In this document: piece after piece, positions 4,883 to 19,848 of the stretch
Position numbering within the stretch: position 1 is the first letter of the stretch
How the letters are laid out: every line of letters begins with the position of its first letter
Origin: a virus
Strand: one strand, 5' to 3'
Virus record (IMG/VR): IMGVR_UViG_3300028840_008162
Coordinates: 1 to 22,020 of that record
Length of the DNA: 22,020 nt
Translations under genes and position numbers: made by a program
Notes under the pieces: model-generated
What the model saw: the letters and a program-made list of their open reading frames with translations, nothing else
What the model was told of the DNA's origin: nothing
Databases searched by the model: none

Positions 4883-7800
4883 GAGAATAAGAGTTGTAAC
4901 ATCAAGCAGCACTCCTGAGAAGAAGTTTTCCCCTCAGAAAAGAGTCGTATCCGCTTCTGATAATCCACGGCCATCAATGAAGATGACTAAAAACGAGATT
5001 ATGGCCCGTAGAAATAGAAGGATTGCTACAACGACTACTTTTGGGTCTTATGGAATGAGAACGGCTGGAGATGTTCTCGATAGCGGGACAAGCCAGTTCT
5101 ATTCTCCTCAGCTTAGTACTGACTTCCTCGAAAAGCCACAGAACCTTCGTGAGAGAAGAGCCTTTTACCGGTTCTTTTATAATACAAATGAAATAGTAGG
5201 TCAAGCAGTAGATATTCATTCTACACTTCCTTTGTCTAAGCTCAGACTGGTTCCACCAAAGGGTAGTAATAAGCATCAGAATCAATATGTCTTCAAATTT
5301 TTTGAAGACATGTGCGAGAGAATGAAGCTTTTCAAGACTCTTATTGAGGTAACCCATGAGTATAATTTGATGGGGAATTGCGTATCGAGGGATTCCTTAT
5401 TAAGGACTCCACAAGGCTACATGAGGGCGGATCAGCTTTCGATTGGTGATGAAGTCCTTACTAATAAGGGCAGATTTAAGAAAATACTTAAGAGGTCTAT
5501 CAGACCATCCGAAGTTGTTTTGAACATACGATGTTGGAAGGATTTTAGAAATTTAAGAATAACAGATGAACATCCTATAGAAGTTTTAAGAGATGAAGGC
5601 TTTGAATTTATTCAGGCTAGTGAACTTACACTCTCTGATTATGTTCGAATCACGTGGCCGAGTGAAATTAAGGATATAGATAAAGTAACGCTTGAATTCC
5701 CTAATAATTATGTAAAACTAGATAGGGGATATGAATCCAACGTTGAAATAGTCCGTTTAAGAAGTGATAAAGCCAACAGCGCAAGAAAATCCTTGCTGCT
5801 GTGGCTAGGTTCATTAGGTGAACCTGCTATTAAAACACGAAAGGAATTAGCCAATCAGTTCAATGTATCGGAATCAACCCTTAATAATGTCATAAATACT
5901 TTAACAGTGGAATTAGATCAGAAATTTCATGAGAGACTAGGAGCTAAAGGATGGCAAAAGGGGTCCCAGATAAGATGGTTACCCATTGATTTGAGTAATA
6001 TTGAAATCAGGGATTCATATATCATAAAAAGGTCGAAAATACTCAGCGCTATTGATGAGCTTAAAATTGATAACAATTTCGCTTATCTGGCAGGATTTTG
6101 GCTAGGAGACGGGACTCTAGGAAGAGATTCTCAAAGAAATAATTGGGGAAGGGGTCTGTGGCAGATATCCTTCTCAGAAAAGGAAACTGTTAATATTGAT
6201 AGGATTAAAAAAATACTTATAAGCATTTTTGGAGAAGATTCTATAAAAAGTTGGAATAGTAATGGAAATACATATATAAAAGTTAATTCGAATCCGGCAT
6301 TTATAGAATGGTGGTCAGATAATTTTGGAGAAACTACTTTTGAGAGAAACCTGAAAAGAGTTCCCCAATGGTTGATAGACCTTCCTGTTGATAAGCTGAA
6401 GTATTTCCTTGCAGGTTTGATAGACTCTGATGGATGTGTATCAGTTAGTGGCGATAAGAGGCTCTCGATAGTAGATATAAAGACGGCATCGCGGAATATA
6501 ATGGATGCTGTAAGAGATATATGTCTAAAATGCGGAGTTATAATAAATTACAATAATTCTGTTCCAAGGACTACTAAGCTTCCAAACGGTAATGAGACAA
6601 TTTCTAGCGAGATGTTCATTGTAACGGCAAGTGAAGAAGAGTCTTGCCGAATTCTAACTGATTATTCTAATAAGAAGTTGCCTGAAGATGCAACTTTTAC
6701 CATTATGGATAGATATTGGCAAAGGACTGATGGGGGTCTGGCCTTAAAAATAAAAGAGATTTGTACAGAGGACTATAAAGACCTGGTTTATAATTTTGAG
6801 GTTGAGGAAGACCATACATATCAGGTAAATGGGTTCTCAACTCACAATTGCTTCGTGTTCGCTGAGGAAGATGATTATTCTGATGATTCTTCACCAGAGG
6901 AAAAAGCTCAGAAAAAGGAAGAAGCTAAACAGAGAAGTCAATTCCTGAAGCAAAAGTATGATATCAGTGATAAAGACCCCCTGTTTAAAGGCTGGAAGAA
7001 ACTTATTGTTCTTCCTCCTGACCAGGTAAGGGTTAGAAAGCTACCCCTATCAGATGATGTAGCTATTGAATATGTTCCTGATCCAGAAACGAGAAAATAC
7101 ATAACATCTGAAATGCCCATGTACCCGGATCAGATGCTTGAATCGAGCGGAATAAAGTATGACATTCCTTCAGAAATACGAAATAAGGTCATGCAGAGTG
7201 GCACCATACCACTTGATACCGACCCCTATACAGGGTCACATGTATATCATCTTGCCCGTAAAAAATCTCAATATGAGCCCCTCGGTATTTCTGTCATTGA
7301 GCGGTGCATAAATACCCTTGTTCTGATGGATAAGCTCCGTCAGGCCCAGACCTCTATTGCATCCCGTCATATGACTCCCATGCGTATCGTATGGGCTGAG
7401 GACCTCAGTTCTGACCAAGTCGATGAACTCAGAGAACAGGTCGACCTGGCTCTTGTGGATCCAGACTATAGTATCATAGCTAACTATGAGGTCCACTGGG
7501 AAGAGATGGGATCTAACGGGCGTCTGCTCGATATCGAGGCTGATTATGAGGGGTCCCTGAACAGGCTGTTTGCTGGTCTTGGAGTAACCAGAGAGATTCT
7601 CACCGGAGAGGGAACATACACCGGTAGTAAGATATCTCTGGAGATAATGAATACTCAGTATCTTCTTTATAGGGAAATCCTACAGGATTATGTCGAGAAC
7701 TACCTGTTTAAGCCCATAGCAAAGAAAAAAGGCTTCGTTGAATATGATGAGTATGGCAATGAAGTTGTTCTCTACCCTCGACTGAGTTTCACAAGACTTG

Positions 7801-8893: not shown

Positions 8894-9424
8894 ATGGATA
8901 TACTCATAATGGCACCGAGGGTTATTCAGGGATATATAGAGCGGTTCCCTGAGGTTTATCACAATGCTTATGGGTATTTCAATTACGATAAAAGAGTGGT
9001 CGAGGAAAGAGTCCCCAGGGGTGACTTTCAGGTGCCCTATAAGGGCCCCGATGATCTCACAGAGGGTGACTATCAGGTTATCGTGTCATATGCTCAGACA
9101 TTAGTAGACCCCATACTCCTTAAATATAACCAGAGGGTGGCTCTCGAAGACGCCCTGGCAAAGGCAATAAGGACATATGGTAACGGCGTTTTTGATAACA
9201 AAATAAACGCTAATAGGTATAATGTCCTCCTTCAGTCACTACTTGCTTCTCGTTTTGCGAAGAAGACAGAGAAAGCCCCTGAAAAGACTGAAGTTAAGCC
9301 TCGTGTAATGAGAGAACTCGGTCTTAAATCGAAAGATATTCCCCATCAGGTCAGGAGACGGGATCATAAAGGTCCTGCACTCTACAAGTCCAGAGGGAAA
9401 ACCTACATAGAAAAGAACAAGTAG
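8894..9424 (+). CDS. Hypothetical protein in head gene cluster
   Basis: A 176-residue protein. ATG 8894 is preceded by an ACGGGGTAG ribosome binding site; ATG 8909 (MAPRVIQGY) is a less likely alternative. The N-terminal half is mixed alpha/beta with several aromatic residues (NAYGYFNYDKRVVEERVPRG). The middle is helical, and the C-terminal third (about residues 120-176) is highly basic and probably disordered, ending in YKSRGKTYIEKNK. I do not recognise a family. Neighbours and the preceding promoter-like motif place it in the morphogenesis operon. Confidence 0.7.
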   Translation: MDILIMAPRVIQGYIERFPEVYHNAYGYFNYDKRVVEERVPRGDFQVPYKGPDDLTEGDYQVIVSYAQTLVDPILLKYNQRVALEDALAKAIRTYGNGVFDNKINANRYNVLLQSLLASRFAKKTEKAPEKTEVKPRVMRELGLKSKDIPHQVRRRDHKGPALYKSRGKTYIEKNK

Positions 9425-9443
9425 TCCTTAAAAGGAGGATCGC

Positions 9444-9764
9444 ATGTTGAAGAATGCCAAGAGTTACACTGAGCGCCTCGATAAGATCGCTGAGGAAGTT
9501 CAGGCCTACAGCCCCGAAGTTGCTCTTCAGATCGACCTGGTTTCGGATGTCATTGAGGGACGTCGTGAAGCCTCTACTCTGAAGTTTGATGCCGATGAGG
9601 GCCGTTATATGGCCAACCGTTTCAACTCGAACGTTCGCAGCCGCGAAGCCGACGAGCCCTATATGGATAACTTTAACAAGAGCAATTTCGAGCAGGTGTC
9701 TATAGCCAAACAGAATCCGACGCCGGTTAAGAAGGCCAGTGCTTTCCCGTATCAGAAGGCCTAA
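9444..9764 (+). CDS. Small abundant structural or prohead-core protein (putative)
   Basis: A 106-residue protein behind a strong AAAAGGAGG ribosome binding site, seven bases or so from ATG 9444. Its codon use (for example AAC, CGT, GTT, GAC) is like that of the scaffold, decoration and major capsid genes downstream and unlike its AT-richer neighbours, which suggests high expression. Residues 1-45 look helical (YTERLDKIAEEVQAYSPEVA), followed by an acidic then basic polar tail. Small, abundant, charged proteins in this position in other large phages include internal head or prohead core proteins; that is an inference, not a recognised homology. Confidence 0.7.
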   Translation: MLKNAKSYTERLDKIAEEVQAYSPEVALQIDLVSDVIEGRREASTLKFDADEGRYMANRFNSNVRSREADEPYMDNFNKSNFEQVSIAKQNPTPVKKASAFPYQKA

Positions 9765-9779
9765 GAGAAGGGAAGAGGG

Positions 9780-10283
9780 ATGCCCTCCTTATATCCGATG
9801 AGTTCGTCCCCTGAGGATTTCCTTATTGGGGATAGAGTCAGAAAGTTTGTAAGTGAGATAAGTGTGTCTCCATACATAGGTGTGGTTACACACTTGAGTC
9901 CCTCTACTTATAAGGTCTGGGTACAATGGCCGGATGGCAACGAGGCACAGGAAGACCCTGATACTCTTATCAGGGTCAATCCTGCTCTCGGACTTCCAAC
10001 GGTGCATTGTGATAAGGGCTACGACTCCTATGAGAAACAGCTCTCTGAAAAATTCTATGGTCCAGTACAAAAAGCTGTTCTGGCCACAAATAAGATGGCT
10101 ATCAGAGTGGCCTATAGTTTTGCAAATAATGTCATAGGGAAATTGGTGGATGACGCTGCAAACCTTTTCGATGAAGGTCTGAGTGATGTACAAGCCTATA
10201 ACAGGTTGTACACAAAATATGGCAGTGTATGTTCAGACCACATGATTAAGTCATCCATTCAAAAGATATTCGGGGAGGTATAG
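9780..10283 (+). CDS. Hypothetical protein with SH3-like beta-barrel domain
   Basis: A 167-residue protein starting at ATG 9780 after a purine-rich GAAGGGAAGAGGG stretch. Residues about 16-60 (GDRVRKF, YIGVVTHLSP, YKVWVQWPDG, EDPDTLIRV) have the pattern of a small SH3-like or KOW-like barrel. A link region with GYDSYEKQLSEKFYG follows, then a helical C-terminal half (about 95-167). Similar barrel proteins exist in phage genomes beside head genes, but I cannot name a function. It abuts the next gene, whose GTG start directly follows its TAG stop. Confidence 0.7.
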   Translation: MPSLYPMSSSPEDFLIGDRVRKFVSEISVSPYIGVVTHLSPSTYKVWVQWPDGNEAQEDPDTLIRVNPALGLPTVHCDKGYDSYEKQLSEKFYGPVQKAVLATNKMAIRVAYSFANNVIGKLVDDAANLFDEGLSDVQAYNRLYTKYGSVCSDHMIKSSIQKIFGEV

Positions 10284-11023: not shown

Positions 11024-13786
11024 ATGGCGATGTTAAAATACGGTAATGCTTCATTAATCCAGCCAAATATATCCGTTGATGGCTGGGTTAATAATTTATA
11101 TAACGTAGCTTGTAGTAACGGTAAGTGCCGCATGAAGACGGCAAAGACCGTACTGGCAAAATATGACCCGAAAAAGTATTATCTGAGCCACTGCACAATC
11201 ATTGCTGCTGTTGACACCGATCTTGCAAACCCGAAAGAAGAAAAGTCTGATTATCTCATTAAGCCTGAATATTCAAAGTTCGTAAATAATAACGGTGATG
11301 CATGGTCTAAGAGGCTCCTCCAAGCTTGTTATAGAACCTTTATTGGTTGTAATAACTATTGTTTTCCTTCTGGTACTCGGGTACTGTTGTCCGACGGGAC
11401 TTATAAAAATATAGAAGAAATTAAAGTTGGGGATACAGTTATAAATAGGAAAGGTGAGATAGGGACTGTAACCAATGTATTTAAGAGGGAATCTTCTGAT
11501 TTAATGGAAGTTAATGGAAAAGGAATTCTATCAAGGTCACTGTTTGTAACCAAAGAACATCCGTTTTGGGTATATAGTGCGCGTAAGAGTTGTCCGAAGA
11601 CTGGTCGACCAAACAGCTTTAATAGGGATAAGGATTTTTATCGTCTAAGCACATGGAAGGGATTCTCGACAGGAGTTCATGAAGGGCATGGAGAATCCTA
11701 TCCCACGGGCATTATTCCTGGATGGAAAAATGCTGAAGATTTAGATGTTAATAGAGATTTTTTAACACACCCAATTTCCCAGGCAGAGCAGTTTAACAAT
11801 GAGGTAAATGCTAATAGAGCTGAGTTGATCGGGTGGTTTTTGGCAGAAGGTTCTTACTCATATACTAATGATTCTTCAGATGAAGAATCAGGCATTACCT
11901 TCAATTTGGGCAACGATGAAAATGATGTAGCTCAGAAATTGTCTCTCCTTCTTATTGAAGAATTCGGAGATAAGCTGAGAATAGATTGCCAACCAAGAAT
12001 ATATGAGACCCAGAGTGGATCCTATAATTTATGTTTAAGTAATAAATATGTAGCTGAATATTTCAAGAAGTGGTGCGGAAAGTATTCATGGGCGAAATAT
12101 ATGCCTGAGGAAGCCATGTGGCTTCCTAAAAAACTTCAGGCAATAATATTGCATAATTGTTTATTTGGTGATGGTACTTCTAAAATTAGTTCTCGTGGAT
12201 ATTGTATAGAGTTAAAATCTAAGAAATTGATACAACAGTTGATGTGGATCTCTTGGAGATTGGGTATACTCCCTAGTTATAAAGAGGTCGGAGTATTGCC
12301 TAGATATACTGATATATCTATTATTGATGGATATGAGGTCTATACCGATCCAATCTCAGGAAAAAGATCCAGACCCGGTTATTCATTGAAATTCACTACA
12401 AGAGATTCAAAGAGACTATGTGATTTTTCAAAATATGATGATGTTAATATCACGGATAAAAGTTCAAATAGATATACCCATTCGTTAAAATGTGATAATA
12501 ATGAATGGATGATATCAAAAATAAAAAAAGTTCAAAGTACTGATGTATCTTGTACGGTCTATAATATAGAAGTCGATAATGATAACTCCTATATAGTTGA
12601 GGGTGTTGCTGTTCATAACTGTGAACATGTCCAGATACCCGAGCTCAGTAAGGGAAAAGTTATTGATGCCGTGCTTCGGGATATCCCAATAGGTAAAGAT
12701 AAAGAAGGTAATGACCTTACCACCTACTATGTTGATATCCTCGTAGCTACTGATAGAAAACATGATGACCTTATTCGTAAGATAGAGGCTAACGAACTCA
12801 ACACCCTGTCGATGGGGTGTACAATATCATATTCAATTTGTTCAAAATGCGGTAATAAAGCCGTAGATGAAACGGAAGCATGCCAGCATGTTCGATATGA
12901 AAAGAATAATCTCTTTTATGATGATAGAGGAGTACAGAGAAAGGTTGCAGAGCTCTGCGGGCATTGGTCGGAGCCAGACAGCGTAAAGTTTGTAGATGCC
13001 TCTTGGGTGAAAACCCCGGCATTTGTCGGAGCGGTCAAAAGAAGTACTATCAGTGTCCCTGATGACATTTCGAAAAAGCTTGAGGCCGCAGAGAAGGTTG
13101 AAGGATATCGTAAGAAAGAGGGCGATTTCCTGAAAGCAGCCCATGTCGTTGCTCAGGATGAAGAAGACACAACGGAAGAGGCACCTGCTGAGGAAACTCC
13201 AGATGACGAAGCCCCCGTTGAAGAAGCTCCTCCTGAAGAGTCCCCCGCTGAAGAAAATCCAGAGTTCAATCTTGATTCCTGGAAAGAGGAAACCAAGAAA
13301 GAGCTCATGGACCAGATCCGTAATGAGATCCTTAAAGAGCTCAGTAATGAAAAAAGGCCGAATGAGCTGGAGACCCTTGACGATACGATAATTAAACCGG
13401 CTTCTGTCTTTAAAAAAGTATGGGGAGCAAAACTATCCTGGGACAGATTCATTACACAGTCCGTAGGTAATATTGATAAGAAATCCTTTGATAAACTCAG
13501 GCATGGAAGTCACATAGTTCTTACTAGCAGTGACCCTACTGTTCTTAAGGATTATGGGTACACAAAAAGGGACTTCCTTGCAGTGCTTTCATTTATTGAT
13601 AGCCATACTACAAACCCTCTGACCTTTAAGATCAAAAAAGCTGTAGCTTCAATGGGCGGAACAGAAAATAAAAGCCCAATTCAAGTCCTTGCGAGAATAG
13701 TAGAGTTAACGGGTGAAAAAATCACTAAGGCACATGGTAAAAAGGTCCTTGTATGGGCCAAGATGTTGGACAGTTTTAATTGCTAA
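11024..13786 (+). CDS. Prohead (head maturation) protease with scaffold-like tail, intein-containing
   Basis: A 920-residue frame; removing the intein (residues 113-532) leaves 500 residues. The protease part includes NNNGDAWSKRLL, then across the splice junction CEHVQIPELSKGKVIDA, in which His535 resembles the catalytic His of the large-phage prohead protease family. LSMGCTIS follows, with Ser596 as the likely nucleophile. Next comes a Cys/His cluster (CSKCG and EACQH) that could bind a metal. After about residue 700 there is an acidic Pro/Glu-rich linker (EEAPAEETPDDEAPVEE), a charged helix (WKEETKKELMDQIRNEIL) and a C-terminal helical domain, suggesting a fused scaffolding or core segment. 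The enzyme would cleave scaffold and capsid precursors inside the prohead. The start at ATG 11024 has only a weak AGGATT site. Confidence 0.8.
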   Translation: MAMLKYGNASLIQPNISVDGWVNNLYNVACSNGKCRMKTAKTVLAKYDPKKYYLSHCTIIAAVDTDLANPKEEKSDYLIKPEYSKFVNNNGDAWSKRLLQACYRTFIGCNNYCFPSGTRVLLSDGTYKNIEEIKVGDTVINRKGEIGTVTNVFKRESSDLMEVNGKGILSRSLFVTKEHPFWVYSARKSCPKTGRPNSFNRDKDFYRLSTWKGFSTGVHEGHGESYPTGIIPGWKNAEDLDVNRDFLTHPISQAEQFNNEVNANRAELIGWFLAEGSYSYTNDSSDEESGITFNLGNDENDVAQKLSLLLIEEFGDKLRIDCQPRIYETQSGSYNLCLSNKYVAEYFKKWCGKYSWAKYMPEEAMWLPKKLQAIILHNCLFGDGTSKISSRGYCIELKSKKLIQQLMWISWRLGILPSYKEVGVLPRYTDISIIDGYEVYTDPISGKRSRPGYSLKFTTRDSKRLCDFSKYDDVNITDKSSNRYTHSLKCDNNEWMISKIKKVQSTDVSCTVYNIEVDNDNSYIVEGVAVHNCEHVQIPELSKGKVIDAVLRDIPIGKDKEGNDLTTYYVDILVATDRKHDDLIRKIEANELNTLSMGCTISYSICSKCGNKAVDETEACQHVRYEKNNLFYDDRGVQRKVAELCGHWSEPDSVKFVDASWVKTPAFVGAVKRSTISVPDDISKKLEAAEKVEGYRKKEGDFLKAAHVVAQDEEDTTEEAPAEETPDDEAPVEEAPPEESPAEENPEFNLDSWKEETKKELMDQIRNEILKELSNEKRPNELETLDDTIIKPASVFKKVWGAKLSWDRFITQSVGNIDKKSFDKLRHGSHIVLTSSDPTVLKDYGYTKRDFLAVLSFIDSHTTNPLTFKIKKAVASMGGTENKSPIQVLARIVELTGEKITKAHGKKVLVWAKMLDSFNC
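11360..12619 (+). mobile_element. LAGLIDADG intein in the prohead protease gene (420 aa)
   Basis: Cys1 is at 11360 (CFPSGTRVLLSDGTYKNIEE, then VGDTVI: block A). Block B is LFVTKEHPFWV with T-x-x-H. Endonuclease motifs are LIGWFLAEGSYSY (acidic residue Glu275 of the precursor) and CLFGDGTSKI (Asp383). Block F is VYNIEVDNDNSYIVEG, and block G ends AVHN at 12619, followed by extein Cys533. The Cys1, His, Asn and Cys+1 set is complete. It is AT-rich relative to the flanking gene and is not closely similar to the portal intein beyond the shared motifs, so the two appear to be independent acquisitions. Confidence 0.95.
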
Positions 13787-13866: not shown

Positions 13867-14706
13867 ATGAGGAAGAGATTGAGCTGGGATGAAGAGAAGG
13901 TCGCCGAACTGGAGAAGAAGGCTGACCCGTATACCATGAATCAGACTCACGAGAACCCCCCGGTACAGAAGTACCAGACGGGTAGCCCGAGTGCTTGGGG
14001 TGAGGATCCGAATATGGCCACCCCGTGGAAGACCGAGGGTAGGACTGAGACCGGTCATCCCGCTCCTGCAAGTAAGGCTGCTCATGAGGCTGTTCTGGCT
14101 GCTCGTAAGCTTGAGGACAAGGCCATCAAGTGCATCACGATTGCACAGCGCATGCTGCCCAATGCCAATGATGAGATCATTGAGGCCCAGGCTACCGACC
14201 TGATGTATCTGCCCGAGCGTTCGGTCCTTGCCACTCTTCAGCGTCAGGCTGAGCTTGCTCAGATCCTTTCCGGTAAGAAGTGTGACACTGAGGAAGGCGC
14301 AGATGTAGAGGCCAAGAAGGCCCCGAAGGCCCCGAAGATGGATGACGGAGGCTCAGCTGAGGAAGAGATGACAGGCGCAGATGTGGAGGCCAAGAAGGCC
14401 CCGAAGATGGATGACGAAGGCGCAGATGTAGAGGCCAAGAAGGCCCCGAAGATGGATGAAGAAGGCGCAGATGTGGAGGCCAAGAAGGCCCCGAAGATGG
14501 ATGAAGAAGGCGCAGATGTAGAGGATGAGGCACCTGATGGTAAGGAAGCCGGTGACCTCCTTGATCAGATTTTTGCTCAGGAAGTTACGGCTTCTGAAAA
14601 GACTGGTGCAAAGAAGTTGAGTGGTCTTGTGAAGCAGGCTTCGGAGAGTGATTCCCTGGCTGGTCTATGGGATACCGCTCCGGACGTTTCCAAGATCTTT
14701 CGTTAA
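13867..14706 (+). CDS. Scaffold or prohead-core-like protein with 15-residue repeats
   Basis: A 279-residue, highly charged protein with AGGAGGT just before ATG 13867. Residues 1-65 are polar and likely disordered. Residues about 67-137 are helical (ASKAAHEAVLAARKLEDKAI onward). Residues about 144-219 contain tandem GADVEAKKAPKMDxE repeats of 15 residues. The C terminus has a helical segment and a SLAGLWDTAPDVSKIF end. High charge, low complexity, location just before the decoration and capsid genes, and codon use typical of highly expressed genes all fit an internal scaffolding or core protein, possibly a substrate of the upstream protease. No enzyme motif is seen. A minor virion protein is the main alternative. 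Confidence 0.65.
   Translation: MRKRLSWDEEKVAELEKKADPYTMNQTHENPPVQKYQTGSPSAWGEDPNMATPWKTEGRTETGHPAPASKAAHEAVLAARKLEDKAIKCITIAQRMLPNANDEIIEAQATDLMYLPERSVLATLQRQAELAQILSGKKCDTEEGADVEAKKAPKAPKMDDGGSAEEEMTGADVEAKKAPKMDDEGADVEAKKAPKMDEEGADVEAKKAPKMDEEGADVEDEAPDGKEAGDLLDQIFAQEVTASEKTGAKKLSGLVKQASESDSLAGLWDTAPDVSKIFR
14296..14523 (+). repeat. 45-nt tandem repeat inside scaffold-like gene
   Basis: Units starting GGCGCAGATGT lie at 14296, 14374, 14419, 14464 and 14509. The three full copies at 14374-14508 are exactly 45 nt each and encode GADVEAKKAPKMD(D/E)E. The first copy carries an insertion, and the last is truncated after GADVE. All remain in frame. Confidence 0.95.
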
Positions 14707-15319: not shown

Positions 15320-16192
15320 ATGGCTGAAATTAGCAATGATGTAAAACAGCAGATTATCGGCGAGCATCTCAAGACCGCCGCTGGACGTGCCAAGCTGGCA
15401 GCGTCCATGATTCAGCCTCTGCGTCTGAGGAGAGATTACACCTCCGTTGGTCGTAAGACCTTCCTGGTGGAGCAGCTCCCTGACGGTGCGTTGCCGATCT
15501 ATGACAAGGATCCCAACGTTACGGCGTATGTCGTCGGCGAGGAAGGTCAGAATATTCTGGCCATCACGAAGCCCCGCCGTGTTATTTTCCCCCTGTTCGA
15601 GATTGCCTCGAACCCGGAGATCCCGCTCACTCAGATCAAAGAGCGCCGGTTCGACCTGATCGAACGTGCTCAGGACCTGGGTAAGGCTGAGATTCAGGCC
15701 GAGGAAGATACCCGTGTCTTCGAGGTTCTGGATGCGGTCGCAACGAGTGGTTTTGACAACATTGGTGCCACCAATGCTGACGTGAACGCCGTTGCTCCTC
15801 TGACGCCTCCCGACCTGGCCGATGCGTTCGCTCGTATCGAGCGTCATGACCTGCGTGTTGCGAGAGTCTTCGCGAATGCCCTCGACTATTCCGACATCCG
15901 TAAGTGGGGACGTGACGTCCTGGACATCGAGTCCCAGGCTACGTTGCTCCGCACCGGTCTGATGGCGACAGTCTGGGGTGCTCAGATCATAGTGTCTCGT
16001 AGGGTGCCTGCCGGGTACATCTACGTGTGCTGTGAGCCCGAGTTCTTCGGCCGTATCCCAGTTCGTACGGAACTTACCGTTCTTTCTGCTGACGATCCTA
16101 AGAACCGTACCATCGGGTTCTCGATTTTCGAGAATCTGGGTATCGGCTGCCACAACCCGCTGGGTCTGTGCAGGGTGGTCATTCAGAGGTAA
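15320..16192 (+). CDS. Major capsid protein, HK97-fold (putative)
   Basis: A 290-residue protein with AGAGGAGGTG before ATG 15320. Its order after portal, protease, scaffold-like and decoration-like genes, its strong ribosome binding site, its GC-richer codon use and the terminator after it all fit the most abundant head protein. The N-terminal region is helical (SNDVKQQIIGEHLKTAAGRA). The middle has a long helix with ERRFDLIERAQDLGKAEIQ and EDTRVFEVLDAVA, as in the spine helix of HK97-fold capsids. The C-terminal part has RVFANALDYSDIRKWG, ATVWGAQIIVSRRVPAGYIY and a final GFSIFENLGIGCHNPLGL segment, typical of capsid A-domain ends. No separate long delta domain is obvious, so processing at the N terminus cannot be placed. 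Confidence 0.8.
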   Translation: MAEISNDVKQQIIGEHLKTAAGRAKLAASMIQPLRLRRDYTSVGRKTFLVEQLPDGALPIYDKDPNVTAYVVGEEGQNILAITKPRRVIFPLFEIASNPEIPLTQIKERRFDLIERAQDLGKAEIQAEEDTRVFEVLDAVATSGFDNIGATNADVNAVAPLTPPDLADAFARIERHDLRVARVFANALDYSDIRKWGRDVLDIESQATLLRTGLMATVWGAQIIVSRRVPAGYIYVCCEPEFFGRIPVRTELTVLSADDPKNRTIGFSIFENLGIGCHNPLGLCRVVIQR

Positions 16193-16216
16193 CTAACTCT
16201 TAACAGAGTAGTTATA

Positions 16217-16251
16217 GGGGTTATGAGAATCTTCTCATAACCCCTTTTTTT
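16217..16251 (+). terminator. Intrinsic terminator after the major capsid gene
   Basis: GGGGTTATGAGA (16217-16228) pairs perfectly with TCTCATAACCCC (16233-16244) around a 4-base loop, and is followed by seven T residues. This is a strong Rho-independent terminator 24 bases after the capsid stop. It separates the structural operon from the AT-rich operon that follows. Confidence 0.95.
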
Positions 16252-16314
16252 ATTCTTCCCCTACACTATAAAATTAGTTATATTATTAATAACAGTGCAT
16301 TGAGGAGATTTCTA
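16252..16314 (+). promoter_or_regulatory. Likely promoter region for the homing/ParB operon
   Basis: The AT-rich stretch with TATATTATTAATAACA (16280-16295) follows the terminator and precedes the TGAGGAG ribosome binding site (16301-16307) of the gene at 16315. A promoter is expected here because the upstream operon ends in a terminator. Part of it (ATTATTAATAACA) is similar to the motif at 13808, but the match needs a gap. Confidence 0.35.
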
Positions 16315-17958
16315 ATGCCCTCTGTTTGGATTGAAGAAAAAGATTTTGATAAAATTTTACATAACAAATATGGTGTTTATTCTAAATCAGAACTCGAACA
16401 GCAGATTAGAGAGGGCAATCTTACTATAAATGAACTTGGTAAGATTTATTCATTATCTGAAGTTCAAATAGTGCATGTATTACGCTTATTAAACCTTACG
16501 CACCGTAATATATTAAGTGACACAAGAATTTCATCCTTTGAGATAACCCCCTCAATACATCAGGTAATCTTAGGAACACTTTTAGGAGATGCTTACATGA
16601 AGGAAAAGAATTCTTTCATGTTAGGTCATAGCATCCATCAAATGGATTATTTCTATACGGTTGCAGAAAAATTAGGGTGTTCAGTATCAACGATATACTA
16701 TAAGAGGGCCACATTAGGAAAGTCTCTGTCTTTATGGACAAATAGACATCCATGTTTTGAGACTTATTTCGAGAGATTCTATCTTAATGGTAAGAAAAAG
16801 AAGCGATTTTCTGAAAAATCAGTTTATGACTTGGAACCTGAGGGCCTAGCTTATTGGTATATGGATGATGGGAAATTTGATGAATATGGCCTAGTTTTAT
16901 GTACGGGGGGTTTTTCAAGAGAAGAGAATTGGATACTTATCGATTTATTGAGAAATAAGTTTTCTGTTGAAGCTACAGAGCAATACCATGATAGAAAAAA
17001 GGATTACCGATATCTCTATATTAAGGCTGAGAGCAGGGGTCATTTCATATCTCTGATAGAACCATATGTTATACCCTCTATGAGGTATAAATTAGAAGGA
17101 AAACCTTATCCAAAATTATCAAACGAGATAGAAATAGCTATTAGGCATATGACTTTCTGTGAAAAAATAGATAAACCGGTTAGGTTTTCTGGTAATTCTG
17201 AACTTAAGAAGATGATAGTTTATAATGTTCCCGATAAAAAAATAGAATACATGAATTCTATAAGGGAGTCAATAAAAGAGAGAAAAATTGTTTCACATAC
17301 GAATGTTAGAAAAGAGCCTTCTTTTGAAGAATTAAAGGCTTTGTTTAAAGACGGGTTAACGGACCAGCAAATAGCCTCACGCTATGGTTTTGGTAGGAAT
17401 AGAATATCTAAAATAAGACGTTCCTTAAATATACCTAGAAAATCAGTTAGATGTAGTTCTGACAGGGTTTGTTTTCCATGCATGAAAGTAAAACTTGTGC
17501 CGTCGGAGAAAGTTGTATCTAATGAATATAATCCGAATAAAGTAGCCCATACCGAGATGTCGCTATTAATACACAGTATAGAAGAAGATGGACTCACTCA
17601 GCCCGTAGTTGTTTTTTATGATTCAAGTATTGATAAATATATAGTTATTGATGGCTTTCATAGATTTACTGTCTTAAAGGACCACTTTAAAGTGGATAAA
17701 ATACCCGTTGTAGTTCTTGAGAAGAAACTTGAAGATAGAATGGCTTCTACTATACGTCATAATAGGGCACGGGGTAAGCATCAAGTGGACCTTATGGGGA
17801 TTCTGGTTAATGACCTGTCTGCTAAAGGTTGGTTAGATGAGCAGATAGCTCAGCACCTTGGTATGGAGGGGGAGGAGCTCTTAAGATTAAGACAACAAGT
17901 TGGATGTGCTAAATATTTAGCAGGAAGTGAATATTCCTCTTCATGGGAAATTAAATGA
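16315..17958 (+). CDS. LAGLIDADG homing endonuclease fused to IbrB/ParB-like domain
   Basis: 547 residues from ATG 16315, chosen because TGAGGAG lies 7 bases upstream; a TTG at 16300 overlaps that site and is unlikely. Residues 24-62 look like a helix-turn-helix. Residues about 80-280 are a LAGLIDADG endonuclease with ILGTLLGDAY (85-94) and LAYWYMDDGKFD (178-189). Residues 336-375 form a second helix-turn-helix-like segment. Cys380, Cys386 and Cys389 form a small cluster. Residues 394-547 match the ParB-like IbrB family: VPSEKVVSNEYNPN, then IDGFHRF (445-451), RMASTIRHNRARGKH and an HLGMEGEELLRL end. No Cys1 block A or His-Asn-Cys end surrounds the endonuclease, so this is a fusion, not an intein. 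The stop overlaps the next start (ATGA). The activity of each half is inferred from motifs. Confidence 0.9.
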   Translation: MPSVWIEEKDFDKILHNKYGVYSKSELEQQIREGNLTINELGKIYSLSEVQIVHVLRLLNLTHRNILSDTRISSFEITPSIHQVILGTLLGDAYMKEKNSFMLGHSIHQMDYFYTVAEKLGCSVSTIYYKRATLGKSLSLWTNRHPCFETYFERFYLNGKKKKRFSEKSVYDLEPEGLAYWYMDDGKFDEYGLVLCTGGFSREENWILIDLLRNKFSVEATEQYHDRKKDYRYLYIKAESRGHFISLIEPYVIPSMRYKLEGKPYPKLSNEIEIAIRHMTFCEKIDKPVRFSGNSELKKMIVYNVPDKKIEYMNSIRESIKERKIVSHTNVRKEPSFEELKALFKDGLTDQQIASRYGFGRNRISKIRRSLNIPRKSVRCSSDRVCFPCMKVKLVPSEKVVSNEYNPNKVAHTEMSLLIHSIEEDGLTQPVVVFYDSSIDKYIVIDGFHRFTVLKDHFKVDKIPVVVLEKKLEDRMASTIRHNRARGKHQVDLMGILVNDLSAKGWLDEQIAQHLGMEGEELLRLRQQVGCAKYLAGSEYSSSWEIK

Positions 17959-18779
17959 ATGGCTCTGTCCTTTTCACTAACAGCGTAGATTTTGAGGTCA
18001 AAAAAATATTATCAGTCTCATTGTGGTCAAAAAGAAGATTCTACATATACGGAAGTTGCCCATCTTTAGATGAGCTTAAGCAGCGCCTTCCAGATTTTGT
18101 TTTCGTAGATTTGAGAGATCTATTAGATCCACAGTTTATAAAAATATTTATCGACAACTCAGATTCAGATTTTTTTGTGATAAAGTGCCTTAGATTTAGC
18201 GATATAATGCATAGGGGCATTGAGAAGTTACAGTTATCATTAGGGTATAAATTTGTTGTAGATAATCATCCTTTTATGGGAAAATCAGAAATATACTGGT
18301 CGTATTTTTTATGGAGCTTCTTCGATAGGTCATTGTTGGGTTATCCCCATTGCTATTCTTTTATCACGGCTCTTAAGAACAATCCTTTTAATATCATGGA
18401 CATAGCTTCAAGGGTTATATCTAAAACTGATACTGATATCCGTGAAATTTTTGATAAAATAGAGGTAAAGAGAATTCAGGTAGATATAGAAACAAAAAAT
18501 GATTATCAGAAACTCAAGACAAAATTATTTGAGGAAGAAAACAGTCCTTTAGTAATATCCAAGAAACTAAGAAGATTTGTAATTCAAAAATATCCTGAGC
18601 TGAAAGAGGGCTTTGACCTTCTAAGGTTAGGTAATGTTTTTGATCAATTCCAAAAGGGTATCAGGACTATAATCGTGTCGGACCTTAAAGTAGATGAATA
18701 TTTGGAAAATAGATTCTGGGAATACATTAATAATGCCAATATTTTTATGAGAACTATATATGACGGAAAAACTGAATAG
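17955..18779 (+). CDS. Unknown protein between ParB-like and PP-loop genes
   Basis: A 274-residue AT-rich gene starting in an ATGA overlap with the ParB-like gene and overlapping the next gene by 20 bases, so all three are co-translated. The N-terminal half is alpha/beta in character, with alternating hydrophobic strands (RRFYIYG, FVFVDLRDLL, DFFVIKCL) and a Trp/Tyr/Phe-rich centre (SEIYWSYFLWSFFDRSLLGY). The C-terminal half is helical and charged. No Walker A, PP-loop, zinc or nuclease motif is visible, and I do not recognise a family. Its position implies that it works with the flanking ParB-like and PAPS-reductase-like proteins. Confidence 0.85.
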   Translation: MNGSVLFTNSVDFEVKKILSVSLWSKRRFYIYGSCPSLDELKQRLPDFVFVDLRDLLDPQFIKIFIDNSDSDFFVIKCLRFSDIMHRGIEKLQLSLGYKFVVDNHPFMGKSEIYWSYFLWSFFDRSLLGYPHCYSFITALKNNPFNIMDIASRVISKTDTDIREIFDKIEVKRIQVDIETKNDYQKLKTKLFEEENSPLVISKKLRRFVIQKYPELKEGFDLLRLGNVFDQFQKGIRTIIVSDLKVDEYLENRFWEYINNANIFMRTIYDGKTE

Positions 18780-19848
18780 AATCTATTTATCAGATAATGT
18801 GCTATTTTCTGCTCAGAAAAGGATTGCTCTTATTTTTAATGAGTTTGAGAAAATTGTTGTATCCATAAGTAGTGGTAAAGATAGTACAGTTCTTTTCTGG
18901 CTGGCTATGGAGGAAGCAATAAAAAGGAAGAGGAAGATAAAGGTATTTTTCTTAGATCAGGAGGCTGAATATGAGTCCAGTATAAAACTAATAGAATTTA
19001 TGATGACCCAATCGTTAGTTGACCCCATGTGGTTTCAAATACCCCTAAGATTAACCAACGCTACTTCATATAGTAATAGTGTATTCTGTTGTTGGGAAGA
19101 AAATAAGGAGTGGTTGCGTTCAAAGCATCCTTTAGCAATACATTCACTCAAAGAAAAATACCCAGACAGGTTCTATGGCTTTTTTAATTGGGTAGAGAAG
19201 AAGAATTCCGATACAGCTTTTTTAATTGGGCTTAGGGCTGAAGAGAGCATCAATCGGTTAAGAGCTGTAATGTTAAATCCCGGTTGGAACTCAATCAGAT
19301 GGAGTACTAAAACTAAAGGGAGTAATACTTTTCGATTTTACCCGATATATGATTGGGTAGTTAGTGATATCTGGAAATACATTTATGAAAATAATCTACC
19401 TTATAATTCTGTTTATGATAGAATGTATCATTCCAATAAAAACTATTATAAAACGATGAGGGTAAGTAATCTTATACATGAAAAGAGCTTTAGATGCTTA
19501 GGGGACTTACAGATTTACGAACCGGTGATGTTCGATAAATTGGTAAAGAGATTACCCGGTATTCATGTGGCTTCTATTTATTCCAAAGAAAAGACTGTTT
19601 TCAACACCGATGTATTACCTAAGAGTTTTAAGTCATGGAAGGATTATAAGGATTACCTTTTAAGAACGACTCCATTAGAATATAAAAATAGGTTTGATAA
19701 GAGATTCTCAAAACAGCCTGATAATGAGAATATGGCCAGAAAACAGGTTAGACAGATTTTGTTAAATGATTATGAGAATAATTTAAATATAAAAACAGTG
19801 AAAAAAAATAAGATTGAATTGTATGAAAAATGGTGGGATAAATTTTAA
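18760..19848 (+). CDS. PAPS-reductase-family PP-loop protein, IbrA-like
   Basis: A 362-residue protein starting at ATG 18760 inside the previous gene. Residues 32-46 (IVVSISSGKDSTVLF) hold the PP-loop ATP-binding signature with SSGKDS in place of SGGKDS. LDQEAEY (65-71), GLRAEES (157-163), PIYDWVVSDIWKYI (195-208) and NLPYNSVYD (212-220) are all typical of the PAPS reductase / adenylyl-transferring PP-loop family. Cys110-Cys111 and Cys246 are the only prominent Cys positions; the ECGLH-type Cys motif of assimilatory PAPS reductases is absent. Together with the ParB-like partner this matches the IbrA/IbrB pair of E. coli and prophages. A sulfur-transfer or adenylation role is possible, but the substrate is unknown. 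Confidence 0.88.
   Translation: MTEKLNRIYLSDNVLFSAQKRIALIFNEFEKIVVSISSGKDSTVLFWLAMEEAIKRKRKIKVFFLDQEAEYESSIKLIEFMMTQSLVDPMWFQIPLRLTNATSYSNSVFCCWEENKEWLRSKHPLAIHSLKEKYPDRFYGFFNWVEKKNSDTAFLIGLRAEESINRLRAVMLNPGWNSIRWSTKTKGSNTFRFYPIYDWVVSDIWKYIYENNLPYNSVYDRMYHSNKNYYKTMRVSNLIHEKSFRCLGDLQIYEPVMFDKLVKRLPGIHVASIYSKEKTVFNTDVLPKSFKSWKDYKDYLLRTTPLEYKNRFDKRFSKQPDNENMARKQVRQILLNDYENNLNIKTVKKNKIELYEKWWDKF

Follow-up and report, generated by a model that had tools for sequence, protein, structure and literature searches.

A LAGLIDADG endonuclease joined in frame to an IbrB-type ParB protein downstream of the capsid gene in a huge phage related to phage G

Self-protection of homing endonucleases is normally provided by the insertion itself or by differences in the target sequence. 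Intronless homing has been established for T-even phages (PMC2988022), and the endonuclease genes of phages cluster near essential genes (PMC10448857). Endonucleases have also been reported in association with other activities: in moraphages, they are paired with antitoxins (PMC12619734), and some actinophage methylases contain a lone LAGLIDADG domain, although a one-chain restriction-modification role was judged unlikely for these proteins because no such system with a LAGLIDADG enzyme had been described (PMC9957025). A LAGLIDADG fusion with an IbrB or Mom-like protein was not found in our literature search, which was largely confined to sources other than subscription journals.

The locus described here is located in a stretch of 22,020 nucleotides of a metagenomic virus record (IMGVR_UViG_3300028840_008162, positions 1 to 22,020), referred to below as the window; from the capsid gene to ibrA, all the features that are located below lie on the + strand. 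Just downstream of a ribosome-binding site, GAGGAG, read from the sequence at 16302..16307, a single uninterrupted frame of 547 codons extends from the ATG at 16315 to the stop codon at 17956-17958. Residues 1-380 (16315..17454) constitute an endonuclease part, the extent of which matches that of the free-standing endonucleases of two related contigs, L003 and L120. This part consists of a helix-turn-helix segment (HTH1, residues 24-62, 16384..16500, PF17762), a LAGLIDADG_2 domain (residues 83-240, 16561..17034) and a second such segment (HTH2, residues 336-375, 17320..17439), and it is followed by a short junction (residues 380-383, 17452..17463) and a complete IbrB part (residues 384-547, 17464..17955). 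In the Pfam search, the protein matched LAGLIDADG_2 at residues 83-240 (E 5e-28), HTH_ParB at 27-63, HTH_23 at 343-370 and, weakly, ParB_N at 391-474 (E 2e-7), whereas in PHROGs, residues 76-261 were assigned to the LAGLIDADG family phrog_11023 (E 6e-18) and residues 388-547 to the ParB-like phrog_2159 (E 4e-57). Both endonuclease motifs, GTLLGD92 and MDD185G, are intact, including the acidic residues D92 and D185, invariant among the relatives and aligned with the two motifs of I-SceI, as in I-SceI-like LAGLIDADG homing endonucleases (PF03161); by sequence, the nearest solved structures are 6x1j, a probable intron-encoded endonuclease, and I-SceI itself. One gene encodes a complete I-SceI-like LAGLIDADG endonuclease and a complete IbrB-type ParB protein, end to end, and the original prediction of a direct in-frame fusion with both partners intact is borne out by the single frame, the full-length domains and the conservation of both motifs.

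The structure model of the fusion protein (mean pLDDT 58, pTM 0.32) was not usable. Another contig, L001, which is 99.7% identical to the window without being the same sequence, encodes the same 547 amino acids at 100% identity. These two contigs differ in the copy number of the GADVEAKKAPKMD repeat units found at 14289-14530 of the window, within the ORF 13867-14706 (~14.4 kb). The G+C content drops from ~57% in the capsid gene to 32-40% at the fusion region, the rest of the window being also largely AT-rich.

Two HTH segments had been predicted to flank the endonuclease domain; both are present, but they belong to the endonuclease itself, because unfused relatives carry both of them, HTH2 being found in the free-standing endonucleases of L003, L120, L123 and L126. 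The proposed Cys380/386/389 cluster fared worse: in the closest relatives only Cys389, a part of an FPC motif, recurs, so that a zinc site is not supported. The claim that the gene is not an intein stands, since none of the intein models matched the fusion protein and no splicing blocks were recognized, whereas two other proteins of the same window matched these models clearly and served as positive controls. These are the head maturation protease, with an intein at residues 113-532 (11360-12619) that ends in VAVHN before Cys, and the portal protein, with an intein at residues 169-658 (5379-6848) that contains a LAGLIDADG_3 domain and ends in FSTHN before Cys; both match the intein C-terminal model. 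A further intein, with a LAGLIDADG domain, splits IbrA in L123 (9430-11814) at the SSGKDS nucleotide-binding loop, and this example also served in the rejection of the intein reading. The head maturation protease of L003 lacks the intein that is present in its homologue in the window. An intron was rejected as well, given that no group I or group II intron was matched by Rfam anywhere in the window and that the frame of the fusion is unbroken.

Comparison with unfused relatives identifies the place where the two partners meet. The gene order of the window, namely, capsid, endonuclease, ibrB, p274 and ibrA, is exactly reproduced in L119 and L120, where the endonuclease and IbrB are separate, and in L120, the endonuclease stop codon overlaps the IbrB start as ATGA, which coincides with the junction in the window. 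Between an AGA codon common to both and the codons for FPC, a manual count gives the window 4 nt more than L120, which puts the endonuclease and IbrB in the same frame. The two loci share 73% identity in IbrB and 47% in the endonuclease; pN/pS between them is 0.28 and 0.52, respectively, a rough sign of constraint given that synonymous sites are saturated. In L002 and L003, a capsid gene of the window type (87% identity) is followed by a free-standing endonuclease of 394 residues with both HTH segments and by a second LAGLIDADG ORF; in L003, a 109-residue ORF comes next and then a free-standing IbrB of 175 residues, so that two further ORFs separate the endonuclease from IbrB. Unfused endonucleases also occur in several additional lineages. 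Because L120 and L003 contain separate whole genes, the gene in the window represents two genes joined at residues ~380-384, not a ParB gene interrupted by an in-frame insertion of the endonuclease, as had been proposed alternatively. The endonuclease might, as the original prediction also suggested, make use of ParB-like DNA binding or come under its control.

The next gene downstream, p274 (17955..18779), encodes a protein of unknown function of 274 residues, for which the structure model reached a mean pLDDT of 60. L120 has a homologue at the equivalent position (46% identity), and weaker homologues are present in L010 and L012. It is followed by ibrA (18760..19848), identified by Pfam and PHROGs as a PAPS-reductase (PAPS_reduct)/DUF3440 protein; it weakly resembles DndC. 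The IbrB-type ParB core is of full length and lies in an operon with ibrA; a scan of eight to ten proteins of the window gave no ParA-like match, and the operon partner of the ParB-like part is IbrA. Our guess, by analogy, is that IbrB, p274 and IbrA might form a DNA-modification module, because IbrA is weakly similar to DndC, the ParB domain of the fusion also matches the phage DNA-methyltransferase family phrog_498, and methylases and Mom-like proteins occupy the same place in related loci. In an IbrB relative from Flavobacterium phage VK48 (KY979245.1, 5374-5984), the match is broken into two segments and spans more sequence than in other relatives.

Upstream of the fusion gene lies the gene for the major capsid protein (15320..16192, phrog_2522, assigned by PHROGs and homology), closed by an intrinsic terminator with a 13-pair stem and a T-run (16216..16251; 0.1 expected in shuffled sequences). 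The capsid protein is 77% identical to that of the huge phage LR745208.1 and 39% identical to gp27 of Bacillus phage G, and its relatives belong to phage-G-like huge phages, with contigs of up to 437 kb. Capsid relatives were fetched irrespective of endonucleases, and the best 80 capsid loci were read; endonucleases were called with a profile built in this analysis (E 1e-4, stop-to-stop frames), and LAGLIDADG_2 was confirmed by Pfam in 10 of the 10 calls checked. When the endonuclease-selected loci are included, there are 67 clusters at 95% capsid identity, 59 of them covered, in which the first 1 kb 3' of the capsid gene contains the starts of 34 endonuclease ORFs, and none was found upstream of this gene in the covered stretch. 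Among the 50 non-redundant loci from the best 80 of the capsid search alone, that is, clusters with at least 2 kb of downstream sequence, an endonuclease is present within 3 kb downstream in 27. In phage G and Tunturi_5, no endonuclease is annotated 3' of the capsid gene, and the site is thus empty in these phages. The site 3' of the capsid gene is a hotspot for LAGLIDADG genes, and the one in the window has the features of a free-standing homing gene, being located outside introns and inteins, in an intergenic position beside a conserved gene, and absent in some relatives.

Other genes also occur at this site. IscB/RRXRR-type ORFs are found 3' of the capsid gene in L009 (4070-5998) and L136 (2656-4755), and ORFs with a similar start in L129, L133 and L138, whereas in L142 a TnpB-like transposase gene (phrog_506, 9092-10225) is located 3' of the capsid gene, immediately 5' of an endonuclease fusion described below. 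In L004 (2308-3204), an endonuclease of the window family is antiparallel to the capsid gene, and therefore the gene tolerates either orientation.

The predicted fusion recurs in related phages: the endonuclease and IbrB share one frame 3' of the capsid gene in two divergent contigs, L203 (135 kb) and L195, where the fusion is at the contig end and IbrB is incomplete. In a tree of 14 endonucleases, the sister of the window sequence is the unfused L003 (support 99/96), and three changes are needed to account for the fused state. A single clade of the three fused sequences (window, L203, L195) was rejected (AU p 0.0024) in a test that was performed with the tree already known and in which the fused group was defined by gene structure. 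Thus, the two genes have been joined or split on at least three occasions, with fusion and fission both possible as the tree does not polarize the change. None of the 80 loci fetched with an IbrB search has a fused endonuclease. In searches of the phage and plasmid collections, coverage of the fusion reached 80% in no record, and among the matches listed, only the IbrB part is represented; in the genome collection, only distant LAGLIDADG relatives (27-36%) were detected, none with IbrB, IbrA, the methylase or the capsid protein in the fetched stretch.

The partner itself is exchanged. In 16 of the same 50 capsid loci, the endonuclease shares a frame with an N6/N4 DNA methylase (PF01555, N6_N4_Mtase) that retains the SPP(Y/F) motif, and thus these chains combine, by domain content, a nuclease with a DNA-modification enzyme. 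A frame of this kind, 1230 residues long, follows the capsid gene of LR745208.1, a phage of 485 kb. A LAGLIDADG ORF of L142 continues in frame into a Mom-like protein (phrog_1384, E 9e-15), and L196 has a relative of the window endonuclease joined to a homologue of this Mom-like part (E 3e-115). Judging by domain assignments, capsid-adjacent endonucleases are repeatedly joined to enzymes of the DNA-modification type, with three classes of partners, IbrB, methylase and Mom-like.

Traces of insertion are apparent at two loci only. In L271, the endonuclease-methylase gene precedes a degenerate duplicate of the capsid 3'-terminal codons (59 nt, 90% identity). L124 has the initial 42 codons of an endonuclease-methylase-like gene, joined directly to a duplicate of the final 16 capsid codons; an endonuclease of the window family starts next. 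These duplicated capsid ends suggest break repair or cassette insertion at the capsid 3' end.

Taken together, these observations make it fairly probable, in our assessment, that the locus is a free-standing homing cassette that carries, and is physically coupled to, a DNA-modification module. The mobile cassette would comprise the endonuclease-IbrB gene, p274 and ibrA, situated 3' of the capsid gene in a huge phage of the phage-G type. Upon co-infection, the endonuclease would cut the genome of a cassette-free relative at or near the conserved capsid 3' end, and repair of the cut genome would copy the cassette over by intronless homing. IbrB, p274 and IbrA would travel as cargo, presumably with a role in DNA modification, as the methylases and Mom-like proteins in the equivalent place of the sister cassettes suggest; the fusion would prevent separation of the nuclease from its cargo and may direct the modifier to the site of the nuclease. 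A stronger version, in which the same chain marks the carrier DNA, so that the cassette would cut unmarked rivals at the capsid gene and spare its own genome, with IbrAB as a modification system interchangeable with the methylases and Mom-like proteins, appears rather unlikely.

The main competing possibility, which we rate as appreciably less likely than the coupled homing cassette, is that a small indel joined two ATGA-overlapping genes to no effect, the domains working as before, the joint having no function of its own and an internal start perhaps still yielding IbrB. The overlap in L120 and the net difference of 4 nt are what such an event would leave, an in-frame ATG is present at the former IbrB start in L203 and Met390 lies just 3' of the FPC motif in the window, and the junction sequences of the window, L203 and L195 differ from one another; however, fused IbrB is found in three separate branches, methylase and Mom-like fusions are common at the same site, and L195 has no evident internal start for IbrB. 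Overlapping neighbours can be fused by one small indel, and therefore the recurrence indicates tolerance as well as a possible benefit. A present role of the endonuclease chiefly in sequence-specific DNA binding, as an arm that delivers IbrB or a methylase to the long endonuclease site, is quite improbable: the two HTH segments and the DNA-binding LAGLIDADG fold would suit this role, as would the persistence of this part while the partners are swapped, but both motif aspartates, needless for a mere binding arm, have been retained in the endonucleases of the window, L203, L195 and L196. An artefactual joining of two genes by a sequencing or assembly error, the refutation envisaged in the original prediction, might be suspected in a metagenomic contig that differs by only 4 nt at the joint from the nearest unfused operon; it is disfavoured to the point of being highly improbable, because fusions recur in the independent lineages of L203 and L195, and the non-identical contig L001 has the same frame.

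Provided that nuclease and partner have the same DNA as their substrate, the repeated in-frame joining of such endonucleases to three kinds of modification-type partners at one site would give selfish nucleases a new means of distinguishing self from rival. The joint gene in the window is a hint of a mobile element equipped with the scissors as well as the mark. The fusion also offers a test of whether the function of the widespread IbrAB pair is DNA modification.

Among the described systems, the free-standing seg and mob endonucleases of T-even phages (PMC2988022) are similar in that the gene is located between conserved phage genes, beside a gene whose relatives lack the endonuclease, and is expected to spread by cutting the cassette-free allele; however, these enzymes are of the GIY-YIG or HNH type, whereas the window encodes a LAGLIDADG enzyme in one chain with IbrB and with multi-gene cargo, for which cutting is inferred. 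I-SceI (PF03161) is among the closest solved structures by sequence, with both motifs aligned, but it is intron-encoded and has neither a C-terminal HTH nor a partner. Moraphage endonuclease-antitoxin pairs (PMC12619734) likewise combine a homing endonuclease and a cargo gene in one module of huge phages, although their cargo consists of antitoxin genes, in contrast to the modification-type enzymes found here. In the IbrA/IbrB modules of phages and plasmids, the IbrB core adjoins IbrA as in the window, whereas the fused endonuclease is absent from all of the 80 loci recovered by the IbrB search. The actinophage methylases of the Taj_79 type (PMC9957025, PMC11855218) also contain LAGLIDADG in frame with a DNA methylase, and no intein or intron parts were found in them; but in that case, the domain is an insertion, to all appearances inherited vertically, within a single methylase family, whereas here the endonuclease forms the N-terminal part of chains with complete partners of three classes, an arrangement that recurs at a single genomic site.
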